The notes under the pieces are model-generated. The model was not told the DNA's origin, made no database searches, and worked only from the letters and a program-made list of their open reading frames with translations. Below are positions 4,665 through 63,374 of a stretch of DNA of 64,000 nt, piece after piece. Origin of the DNA: Candidatus Absconditabacteria bacterium (GTDB lineage Bacteria > Patescibacteriota > Gracilibacteria > Absconditabacterales > Absconditicoccaceae). The position numbers and the translations under genes were made by a program. Every line of letters begins with the position of its first letter. Positions within the stretch are counted from its first letter, which is position 1. Location of the stretch: positions 83,252 to 147,251 of the forward strand of contig JAQUVI010000003.1 in NCBI GenBank assembly GCA_028693445.1, given 5' to 3'.

Positions 4665-7058
4665 TTAAAAATCATAAATTATTCTAATTGAATTGTTTGC
4701 GTTATGTAACATACGATATCTATCAATAATTCAAGTTTCATAAGTACGTTGCAACATAAGCATTACCCAACCCCTAATTTCAGGCATTTCAGGATATTCT
4801 ATCATTTTCATAATTCAATTTTCATTTAATGCTTGTAAATGTTTTGTATAATACAGATCACTGTTATTTCAAGAAACATTGTAAGTATCGCCAAAAATCA
4901 ATCTAGATAAAATAGTTCCAAATTGAGCTCTAGTTACAATATCATTTGGACGAAAAGATTTTTGAGGAATAATTCAATCAGATTCCAATCACATCAATCA
5001 AAGCTGACAAATTATTTTACTATAAAACTTCATTTCAGAAGATTGATCTTCCATATCATTATATTGATCACATCATTCTTTTGTAATATCTGAATATAAT
5101 CATACAATAGTAACAGCATATTCAGTTATCATTTTTGCAAGATGTTTTCTCAAAAGATTTCATCTAATATCAGCATTTTCTATAGGGCACATAGTTGTTA
5201 TTCAAAATCCATATGCAAACTGGAAAGCATCTATAAGTTCTTGTGGATAATCATCGTTTTCTACAGGGCAAGAATTTGCCGAACCATGAAAATCTCAATC
5301 ACAAATACCATCATAATAACTATAAGAATTATCTCCATCAGGACAGTTATCTTTCTCAAAACGAATTCACCCTCACCAACCTCATCAATCCAAAGATCAA
5401 TAATCAAATATTTTTTGTAAAACCAAAGTGGATCAAGAAAGAATCGCTTTTACATTATTTCCCATAATACGAAGATTTGAAAGATCAAGAAAATCAACCA
5501 ATTGAGAAGATCCAGATTCTGATTCAGTCCCTTTATAAATAGACATTCCCTGATTAATTAAACCACAATCAATATATCAGGTACCATCAGATCACAAATA
5601 AAAAACAGGATCCAAACCACCTTCAACAATAACAGTATTTCTTGCAAACAATGAAGAAATATTTTTATATCGGATATATTTATCATCACAACATCCAAGC
5701 TGAGAACAACTTTGTCTAGTTACAAAACTATAGTCTGAAATAATTCATTGATTGCCTACCATATCACGAACATTTACACTCACACGAATAGTTCACGATG
5801 CAGGAAAATCTACATGATTATATACTTCGACCATCCAGTTGGGCTGTAACGCATTACTACTAAGTCCTGAAAGATTCAACATATTTCCGCTAAAAACATA
5901 TGGCCCATAACTTGTTCCGTTGATTCCACTAAGCGTTACCACAATACTCCCCGAATTTACCCCAGCCCAATCATCTTCCACTCCAAATCTAATCAGCGTA
6001 TCATAGTTTACGAAAGAATCATTAACCACTGGAAACCTAGTCCCCGCAATCAACGTCGGACCTTGAGGATTATTAAAATTATAACTTATATTTCTTTGTA
6101 ATCACTTACGATCTCTAACTTGTACAGACAAATCAATTCTTTTTTCTATACCATAATCAAACAAAACTCCTGATGGAATTGAGACATTGTAATTTTTATC
6201 CAAAAATTGCCAAGTTTTGGCACTTGGAGTAGCGTAAGTTCATGAAGTGAATATACGAGTTTGTCCATTACCAGACAAAGTTATTTGCAATGTAGAAATA
6301 TTTATTCCGTATTGCGTATCTATTCACCAAATATTTCCTGTCCAAACATTTCCACCTGTCCAAACATAAGGAACACTAGAACTTGATCAACCAACATCTG
6401 TCAATGAAAGAGAAATTCATGAAAGATAAGTTTGTTTGATTGCTCAATTAATTGGAGTTGTTAAATAAATATTTGGAATCTGAGTATCATCTATACAAGG
6501 TTGTTGAAGAATATTATAAGATCAAGTTAAACGCGGATTTTGAAAAACTGGATTTATTTTATTAACTCATCATACACTCAAGCTTGTTTTAATAGTACTA
6601 CCATCATAAATAATAGCAAAAATTCATGTATAAAAATTCTGATTATAATTGGGAATAAATTTAATAGTTCAATATAATCATCAACTACCATCATATCAAA
6701 CTGTTCAATTATTACGATCAAGTTGAAGAATAGTTTTATCTTCATCAACCCAAGAAGGGCTTTGAGTTGGACTAGTCCAATTAGAAAATGTTTCAGTAGA
6801 AGCAACAAATAAATCACTTTGAAGCTCAGAAGCTAAATTAGAGTTAGAATAAAAAATATTTATTGGATCAAAAAGCAAACGAAGTAATCATGCAGTAGGT
6901 TTTTCTAACTGTGTATTTATTTTAACCTGCAAATTTTCAACACATCACTGTTGATAAGGAAAAGTAGGTGTCTCAGAATCAAAATAATAATATTGAGCAC
7001 CTACAGAAAAAATTATTCAAAATATAATATAAGCAACTAGGAAACCAATTTTTCTCAT
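4665..7058 (-). CDS. Large surface protein: cohesin-like + Ig-like domains + SLH anchor
   Basis: A 797-residue exported protein. The signal peptide is MRKIGFLVAYIIFGIIFSVG. The next 150 residues (QGCVENLQVKINTQLEKPTA to GTIKFIPNYN) have the beta-rich pattern of cohesin-like domains. Several Ig/bacterial adhesin-like modules follow, recognisable by the repeated connector FNNPQGPTLI and the DDWAGVNSGSIVVTLSGING segment, which recurs in the protein at 9538. The C-terminal part ends in SLH repeats (FRPNDIVTRAQFGTILSRLI; NENGIMKMIEYP). Cohesin-like plus SLH is the layout of an anchoring scaffoldin. The start overlaps the end of the upstream gene by 22 nt, implying translational coupling. Very rich in TGA glycine codons. 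The cohesin assignment is by pattern only. Confidence 0.75.
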
Positions 7059-60772: not shown

Positions 60773-60798
60773 TTATATTTATATATAATATAAAACCA

Positions 60799-60841
60799 CG
60801 ATGTCATTCCGACCTTGTTGCGTAGCTGGAGTCGGAATCTG
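60799..60841. repeat. Palindromic CATTCCGACC repeat upstream of tex
   Basis: gatgtcattccgaccttg and tggagtcggaatctg, an inverted repeat of the same family as 53328-53363. Confidence 0.8.
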
Positions 60842-61002
60842 TTCTAAATTTCAGCAAATCAGACTTTATCAAATCCAGCCTTGATGTCAATTCAAAAATT
60901 TTTGACAAAAAAAACATTCTGTGTATAATTGAAATTGAGATGTTGAGAAAATAGCCTATGATACAATTAAGATATTATTTTAAATTATTATTACAATAAA
61001 AA

Positions 61003-61266
61003 ATGTCAGAATTAGAATTATTAAAACCTATTGAAACAAACAACGAAAATGAAGAAACAAAGATTGAACAAAAAGATTATGAAGAAGAACTATTCGAAAT
61101 GATGAATCAAAATTCAGAATTAGAATGATTAACAGAAGAATATGATGAAGAACAAGTATTTGAGAAATTTACTCAAAGAAAAGAATCTAAAAAAGAAAAA
61201 ACATCTCCTCAAAAAAAGAAACTTAAACAAAATACTCAAAATCATCTCAAAGAAGTTTTACGATAA
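61003..61266 (+). CDS. Small charged protein (87 aa)
   Basis: An 87-residue protein starting MSELELLKPIETNNENEETK with acidic first half and a basic Lys-rich second half (KESKKEKTSPQKKKLKQNTQ). One TGA. It precedes the C39-like gene by 10 nt; the acidic/basic design resembles a leader or substrate for the neighbouring peptidase-like protein, but it has no double-glycine site. Function unknown. Confidence 0.6.
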
Positions 61267-61276
61267 ACAAACAAAA

Positions 61277-61804
61277 ATGAAACTACTTACTTTCCCAGAA
61301 CTTCGCCAGTTTTCAAATTATGATTGTTGACCTTGCTCACTACAAGCAGTTTTGGCATATTACAACATTGATATCAAAGAAGGTGAAATTTGCAAAAGAG
61401 CAAATACAACAGAGGAATGAACAAACATTGAAGACATGGTTCGTATCGCAGAAGAAGAAGGAATAAAATGTGTTTCAAAAAAAATGACTATTCAAGAAAT
61501 TACAAAATATTTAGAAAAAGATATCCCTGTAATTATAGCACTTCAAGCCCGAAATTAAGATAAAAATATAAATCGAAAAGAAACACGAGATGACTGACAT
61601 TACGTTGTAGCAATATGATATGACGAAAATAATATTTACTTCGAAGACCCTTCAAGTTTTAAACGTAGTGTTTTATCTTATCAAGAATTAGAAGATAGAC
61701 GACATGACGTAAGTAAAGAATGAGACATATATGATCATCACGGAATAGTTTTTCTAGGCAAAAACCCAAGTTTTAAACTGGATAATTTCGAGCATATGGA
61801 TTAA
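61277..61804 (+). pseudogene. C39-like cysteine peptidase interrupted by TAA
   Basis: The frame MKLLTFPELRQFSNYDCGPC with SLQAVLAYYNIDI has the catalytic-Cys motif DCGPCSLQAVL of C39/papain-like peptidases. The second part carries DDGHYVVAIGYDENNIYFED (catalytic His/Asp) and HHGIVFLGKNP. Between them, at 61556-61558, the frame has TAA after IIALQARN, where a glycine (NGDKN) would fit. Otherwise it is intact to TAA 61802. It could be a pseudogene by a TGA-to-TAA transition, two half-proteins, or a sequencing error. Its neighbour 61003 is co-directional. Confidence 0.72.
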
Positions 61805-61810
61805 TTTTAA

Positions 61811-61846
61811 AATAAAAAAGACCCCAATGCATAATTGCATTGGGGT
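61811..61846 (-). terminator. Terminator of the structured RNA
   Basis: accccaatgca-att-atgcattggggt; on the minus strand it is followed by cttttttattt, giving directional termination of the RNA; on the plus strand there is no T-run. Confidence 0.85.
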
Positions 61847-62478
61847 ATATATTAAGTAATAATTTTCAGTTTAGAGGAGGCTAAATAAGCCTCCTCAGTT
61901 AAACAATGTTTCAATATGGCCTCCCTTCTGGGAGCGCTTTTTTTTGTCTCCGGTAATGGGCGAGCCCAATGCAAATAAACGGGGCACCCGGTGCGGCGAT
62001 CTTCCATAATTAGAAGTAGAGCAACCGGAGGTTGAAATTTGGATGGCTGGAAGTGGGCAGCCATCCTTTTATATTTACTTCGTATTTCTTCTTACAGCCC
62101 CGGCAAATAGCTCGGGCTTAGCGTCGGATGAAGAAATTCCCATGCGCCCCTATTTGGCGCGATTTACCTCCAATAGCCTGGTTGGTTCCAATTTTTAAAT
62201 TTTTAACGGAACATTTTTAAAATTATTTTTTGTGCGGATGGAGGATTTTACCCCTGATCGGTTGGGGCGATAATCGGCAATATTTTCCCCTTCTGGGGTT
62301 TGGAGCAAGCTTCATCTGAGAAGGGCTCCGGATTTTTTTCGGCATATACGGCTTTTTTATTATTTTTTCTGATTACAAACGGCTATTAAAAGCCCCAGGA
62401 CTGCGACAATGCACAGCCTTAATCAACTGCATAAAAATTTTTCGCATATTTCCAAACCAACACTTTTTTATGTTGGTG
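61811..62478 (-). ncRNA. Candidate large structured RNA (~670 nt), unknown class
   Basis: A GC-rich island in AT-rich surroundings, read on the minus strand from a consensus promoter (62484-62511) to a perfect terminator (61811-61846). It begins with a 5' hairpin ccaacataaaaaagtgttgg, and contains many stable stems: ggatggct / agccatcc, gaggaggct / agcctcctc, gcgcc / ggcgc, cccc-agaa-gggg, ggagcccttct, and a long-range ctccgg / ccggag pair. No RNase P, tmRNA, SRP or 6S signature is found. Four consecutive small frames (62432-62373, 62345-62223, 62143-62075, 62064-61852), each ATG to TAA and TGA-free, run along it; coding cannot be excluded. Confidence 0.6.
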
Positions 62479-62483
62479 AGATC

Positions 62484-62511
62484 AATATAATTATTTACAC
62501 ACAAATGTCAA
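62484..62511 (-). promoter_or_regulatory. Promoter of the structured RNA
   Basis: On the minus strand ttgaca, 16-nt spacer, tatatt. The expected start is near 62477, just before the 5' hairpin. Confidence 0.7.
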
Positions 62512-62639: not shown

Positions 62640-63374
62640 ATTATCAAAATTCACTACCGCACCATCATTATCTCAGATGTTCACCTAGGTACTCCTGATG
62701 CAAATCACGAGAAACTTTTTGAATTTATCACAAACAACACTTGTGATCACCTAATTCTAAACTGAGATATTATTGATGGCTTATATTTAGGATTTTTTTC
62801 AAAACGACCTCAAAAACACAGACCAATCATAGAATATATTCTCAATCTTTGAGCAGAAAATAAAGTAAAAATAACTTATCTCAAATGAAATCACGAAAGA
62901 TTTTGGAAAAACCTCCTTCCTATAAAAATCAACAACATCATTTTCGCTGATGAAATAATTTATCAATCAAGGAAAAGAAAATATCTCATCTGTCATGGAC
63001 AACAATTTGACAAAGAATATTGTTGCGGAAAAATAATTAATACGATATCTTTTTTATGATGAACATTCCTTTTCTGGCTCAATAGAAAATTCAACAAAAA
63101 CAGAAAAAAAAATTGAAAAAAATATTTTTCTTTAGTTTCAAAAATTAAAAAATTAGCAAAAAACATTGCCCTTTGATGACCAAAAACATTCGAAAAAAAA
63201 GTAATCAAAATCCTTAGCGAGAAAAAATGCGATGGGCTAATATGCGGACATCTCCACAAACCAGAAATCAAACAAATCTGAATATATAATTATATGAATT
63301 CCTGAGATCGAGTAGAATCCTGCACCGCTCTAGTCGAAACTAATAATAATGAACGAAAACTGATAAAAAGTTAA
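62640..63374 (+). CDS. Calcineurin-like metallophosphoesterase (LpxH/UDP-2,3-diacylglucosamine hydrolase type)
   Basis: A 244-residue dinuclear metal phosphoesterase with IIISDVHLGTPDANHEKLF, LILNGDIIDGLYLG, ITYLKGNHERFWK, LICHGQQFDKEYC and the C-terminal DGLICGHLHKPEIKQIGIY. These are the five metal-ligand motifs of the family in order. The frame upstream of ISDVH has no ATG, GTG or TTG; the best available start is ATT at 62640 (or the ATC after it), 35 nt after the predicted transcription start. LpxH-like genes in bacteria lacking lipid A suggest another phosphodiester substrate. Confidence 0.85.

Follow-up and report, generated by a model that had tools for sequence, protein, structure and literature searches.

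Based on its predicted transcription signals, its fold and a homologue at the same site in a related genome, we propose with moderate confidence that a GC-rich block of the window constitutes a gene of its own, whose product would be a stable structural RNA, transcribed constitutively and acting in trans, a new orphan known from two genomes. This reading is favoured because the RNA forms its own unit with a retained promoter and terminator, carries a 5′ hairpin, has in both species a GC-rich body that folds, and shows no coding similarity. The window is the whole 64-kb stretch of DNA analysed (G000:C3:83252-147251, where G000 is the analysed genome of 1.17 Mb in 11 contigs). Its genes read cleanly when TGA is translated as glycine (code 25), which points to a genome of the SR1/Absconditabacteria type, and among named relatives the closest one, a member of the same genus, is Candidate division SR1 bacterium RAAC1_SR1_1 (CP006913.1; hereafter RAAC1). 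Two further relatives were compared, one from the same genus (G001) and one from the same family (G004). A first-pass annotation of the window had described an orphan structured RNA of ~670 nt with its own promoter and terminator, a description that is supported here and strengthened by the syntenic RAAC1 homologue. The size agrees with the analysed genome (about 660 nt) and is not a property of the family, since the RAAC1 RNA measures about 390 nt, a 1.7-fold difference.

Promoter, 5′ hairpin and terminator of the predicted RNA (Table 1) follow each other in order, all on one strand, and with these predicted signals of its own and no coding similarity it would count among stand-alone structured non-coding RNAs. 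Promoter-like sites scoring at least 9/12 occur equally often in shuffled sequences, and the stronger evidence for the promoter is therefore its conservation in RAAC1, where 36 of 43 bases of the promoter and its surroundings agree (manual count on alignments) and the −10 region is identical. The stable 5′ hairpin begins no more than 1-2 bases from the predicted start; such hairpins are a typical feature of stable RNAs. The terminator is directional because the U-run follows the stem on the minus strand only. All three elements had been named in the first-pass annotation, and each is upheld. Since no gene lies in the direction of the RNA before the terminator, a trans-acting RNA is a better fit than a leader.

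Table 1 Features of the predicted RNA and the convergent small ORF, in window positions.
Feature	Position	Strand	Remarks
RNA promoter, TTGACA-16-TATATT	62484-62511	−	sequence prediction; 11/12 consensus positions; conserved in RAAC1
Predicted non-coding RNA transcript	61815-62477	−	about 660-665 nt; start ~7 nt past the −10 box, end within the U-run of the terminator
5′-terminal hairpin, ACCAACAU/GUGUUGGU	62456-62477	−	GCCAAUAA/UUAUUGGU in RAAC1; p 0.94 in both
5′ domain, P2 AUAUGCG/CGUAUAU around P3 UUGAUUA/UAAUCAG and two hairpins	62344-62449	−	predicted fold
P4 hairpin GCUGUG..CGCAGU, then AGUCCnGG motif	62399-62418	−	GCUCCG..CGGAGU in RAAC1
P6 hairpin GGAGC.CUUC..GAAG...GCUCC	62302-62329	−	p 1.0
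P7 CCUCCA/UGGAGG enclosing a hairpin	62167-62244	−	order similar in RAAC1 by eye
P8 GCGCC/GGCGC	62144-62160	−	3′ of P7; order similar in RAAC1 by eye
Two extra hairpins (62137-62084 and 62066-62041)	62041-62137	−	apparently without counterpart in the shorter RAAC1 RNA, judged by eye
P10 CUCCGGU/ACCGGAG with P11 GGUGCCC..GGGCUCGCC	61948-62030	−	conserved GGCUCGCCCAU at 61966-61956
Two 3′ hairpins, CUCCC/GGGAG and GAGGAGGCU/AGCCUCCUC	61874-61934	−	predicted fold
Intrinsic terminator stem, then CTTTTTTATT	61821-61846	−	sequence prediction; CCCCAGCG/CGCUGGGG in RAAC1, two double changes
Small-ORF promoter, TTGACA-16-TATAAT	60902-60929	+	12/12 consensus; conserved in RAAC1
Small charged ORF	61003-61266	+	87 aa under code 25; runs towards the RNA; RAAC1 has an ORF of 88 aa in the same position

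The block has a GC content of 42% compared with 30% for the window and contains all of the top 600-nt GC stretches (0.427 at 61851), which confirms the earlier remark that it is the most GC-rich part of the window. GC exceeds 40% in both RNAs, though both genomes are AT-rich. The minimum free energy of the window RNA is −206, against −168 ± 6.5 for dinucleotide shuffles, giving z −5.9 on the minus strand and −3.5 on the plus strand, and its body still reaches z −3.6 against shuffles when the two end hairpins are removed. For the RAAC1 RNA on its predicted strand, the corresponding values are −4.0 and, for the body without end hairpins, −2.9. The window RNA is predicted to form at least 10 stems with a pair probability above 0.75, about a dozen being confident, where at least six had been anticipated; internal repeats of note are absent from it.

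As DNA queries against 99 relatives, phages and plasmids, the window RNA returned just 20-40-nt chance matches and the RAAC1 RNA likewise only chance matches. The homologue was instead reached via the adjoining metallophosphoesterase gene, and is a GC-rich block on the same strand in the Tex-phosphoesterase interval (L037, about 6575-6963), at 861.5-862.0 kb of CP006913.1. Both RNAs contain, in the same order, the 5′ hairpin, a GCUnnG..CnnAGUCCnGG hairpin, a GGYGCCC..GGCUCGCCCAU hairpin and the terminator, so that the promoter, both end structures and several internal motifs are kept while linkers and lengths vary. Their sequence alignment beats 100 of 100 shuffles (z 5.7), and no protein similarity links the two blocks in any frame (code 25).

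On a structure-free alignment, 41 of the 50 alignable confident pairs of the window RNA (82%) are still paired in RAAC1, compared with at most 57% in slid registers, for which one pairing partner was moved by 1-6 bases; in the reverse direction, 61 of 87 RAAC1 pairs (70%) are still paired, with slid registers at or below 52%. This alignment holds three double changes, two of them in the terminator stem, and G-U pairs kept in stems (GU 35-132, UG 67-76, UG to CG 494-519) fit the minus strand. Because double changes are few, and covariation is thin with two sequences, the structural claim rests on the carry-over of pairs instead of strong covariation. An alignment of P10 by eye with five double changes was dropped, as the structure-free alignment places that strand differently. 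Equivalents of P2 and P3 in RAAC1 were placed by hand only and are absent from its predicted fold.

Three descriptors (5′ hairpin with promoter, GCUnnG hairpin and GGYGCCC hairpin) match both RNAs; as they were derived from both sequences, this agreement arises by construction and the test is their absence elsewhere. None of the three matches in 1.06 Mb of G001, and the GGYGCCC..GGCUCGCCCAU descriptor of the 3′ domain was found only in the analysed genome and RAAC1 among 288 genomes. The genomes searched cover about half of the known species, and whole-genome searches with RNA models have low sensitivity. Covariance model R1, built on the RAAC1 3′ domain, detects RAAC1 alone and does not detect the window RNA, while model R2, built on the P11 hairpin, found the window RNA and missed RAAC1, its own source, so that its negatives carry little weight. 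Across 1.06 Mb of G001, the greater part of that genome, a scan for another GC-rich structured block gave candidates of which several held tRNAs; five others, read by eye, were unlike the RNA. BLASTP searches with the small ORF gave no support for it as a route to further homologues. A pattern scan of viral contigs produced 70 matches, which were taken as chance uninspected. Two weak R1 matches in a further genome, G019, scored 25.8 and 17.9 bits; both coincide with GC-rich palindromic repeats and were set aside as unrelated. The repeat itself, CTCCCCTCCAAGGGGAG...CTCTCCTTGGAGGAGAG (L155 1475-1620 and L156), is probably a mobile palindromic repeat, with the L155 copy apparently inside a gene and the L156 copy seen only in the model alignment.

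The RNA is neighboured by a C39 peptidase gene, a metallophosphoesterase gene and two genes whose sequences identify them as Tex and IMP dehydrogenase. In G001 and G004, the Tex and phosphoesterase genes are divergent neighbours separated by an empty gap of about 100 bp; since they abut there without the RNA, the unit of RNA and small ORF is probably an accessory insertion. Most simply, the RNA would be an insertion common to the analysed genome and RAAC1, the alternative being loss in the other genomes. Both components evolve much faster than the neighbouring genes: from one genome to the other, Tex keeps 95% identity and the phosphoesterase 69-71%, whereas the small ORFs share 22% identity with a similar charge layout, and we infer from position and promoter that the ORF belongs to the unit. 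That the unit has diverged strongly beside a 95% identical Tex implies a constraint that is weak or limited to a few elements.

Several other features were observed at the locus. The peptidase C39 gene (61277-61804, plus strand) is wedged between small ORF and RNA and has an in-frame TAA at 61556-61558; as a related gene in G034 (L300) is open at that codon, this copy is probably either a pseudogene or a sequence variant. It was rejected as a member of the unit, being absent in RAAC1 and sporadic elsewhere, and no GC-rich block was seen beside the G034 gene. The metallophosphoesterase gene (62640-63370, plus strand) has no ATG, GTG or TTG between the upstream stop and its conserved N-terminus and may start at an unusual codon. 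A short inverted element, GTCATTCCG...CGGAATC, lies between genes at 60790-60850 and recurs several times in the intergenic stretches of G001 that were read (L233, L290, L231).

The main rival to a trans-acting RNA, which we nonetheless regard as unlikely, is an accessory insertion in decay or neutral drift, in which formerly mobile or regulatory DNA has left a promoter and hairpins and no functional RNA. Presence in only two genomes, an empty site in G001 and G004, fast divergence beside Tex, the nonsense codon in the adjoining C39 gene and a structure-aware alignment of the two RNAs with a z of only 2.5 over shuffles would all fit such drift. Several points also count against the trans-acting reading itself: G001, of the same genus, lives without the RNA at the site, covariation is thin, the structure-aware z is low, the unit has diverged strongly beside Tex, the two RNAs differ in length and R1 fails on the window RNA. 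Drift does not, however, readily account for promoter, 5′ hairpin, terminator and several motifs being kept while linkers and lengths change, for a GC content above 40% in two AT-rich genomes, or for RNA bodies that alone fold better than shuffles in both. More doubtful is a new family of large structured RNAs of SR1/Absconditabacteria that would form an RNA-protein cassette together with the small charged protein inherited alongside it; both partners would then change fast behind promoters that remain constant.

Rather improbable is a role in cis, as an antisense or insulating transcript controlling either the convergent small ORF (and C39 in the analysed genome) or the divergent phosphoesterase. 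In its favour, the RNA is convergent with the small ORF in both genomes and divergent from the phosphoesterase. Against it, the RNA is predicted to end at its terminator ahead of the convergent genes, which leaves no antisense overlap, and insulation needs no structured, GC-rich body.

It is very unlikely that a known RNA, either a large class or a housekeeping RNA such as SRP RNA or 6S RNA, is present in the block in highly divergent form. The Rfam/Infernal search proposed in the first-pass annotation matched no known class, with zero matches in the window at gathering cut-offs (Rfam 15, cmscan). When E was relaxed to 10, every hit in the block stayed under the gathering score of its family, and most hits lay over the terminator region. 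As had been remarked from the sequence, hallmarks of RNase P RNA, tmRNA, SRP RNA and 6S RNA are missing. RNase P RNA and tmRNA, the latter searched with a covariance model and ARAGORN, do not match the block; like the window RNA they are structured and GC-richer than the genome, but their genuine copies are encoded elsewhere (G000:C1:160747-161075, 113 bits, and G000:C11:423198-423565, respectively). A covariance model for 6S RNA gave zero matches to the block even with E values up to 10. For SRP RNA, the small and large bacterial models both fail to match anywhere in the analysed genome, so that one such RNA is missing in principle, and the SRP RNA of the SR1 lineage may be very divergent. 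Nevertheless, the SRP domain IV motif is absent from the block even when 9 mismatches are allowed, and G001, which has no RNA at the site, also lacks the motif; the window RNA therefore does not explain the lack.

The ROOL, GOLLD and OLE families are represented in Rfam, and no covariance model for them matches the block, even at E up to 10, or the RAAC1 homologue (cmscan, E up to 1). A further mark by which these three families are judged is the assembly of RNA-only homo-oligomers. OLE RNA is a large ornate bacterial RNA that is not known to be tied to phages. OLE (PMC12286853) is similar to the window RNA in size and in lacking coding content; it occurs in other bacteria, and its model does not match the block. 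Phages and prophages carry the genes for ROOL and GOLLD, in many cases close to tRNA islands (PMC12286853). Both share with the window RNA a long, non-coding, multi-helix form and a transcription unit of their own. Unlike them, the window RNA has housekeeping neighbours, is lineage-specific as far as searched, and occurs at about 390 and 660 nt. With no family match, no tRNA in the window and nothing similar among phage records, an affiliation with ROOL or GOLLD is unsupported, and only size remains of the likeness that had been suggested. A fair analogue for the narrow, patchy distribution is a 520-nt lncRNA of Lactobacillus salivarius, which is megaplasmid-borne, extremely abundant, present in some genomes and not in others, and without clear function (PMC5643018), whereas the window RNA lies on a chromosomal contig and its expression is a prediction. 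Least credible is a protein-coding or recoded gene, as the 70-codon frame on the minus strand has to be set against the lack of a Pfam match, of any protein common to the homologue in any frame, and of any restriction on indel length.

If the block does encode a trans-acting structural RNA, a strong sigma-70-type promoter would drive its transcription leftward, the 5′-end hairpin would probably stabilise it and the intrinsic terminator would end it; the RNA would most likely act as a stable scaffold, alone or with a protein. In this lineage, RNA and small charged ORF probably arrived together between Tex and the phosphoesterase as an accessory, fast-evolving element. A limited collection of literature contained no publication that deals with structured or non-coding RNAs in SR1/Gracilibacteria. 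The window RNA would extend by one the list of large bacterial orphan RNAs whose function is open, and a long, independently transcribed RNA kept in some small SR1 genomes would show that accessory structural RNAs persist even there.
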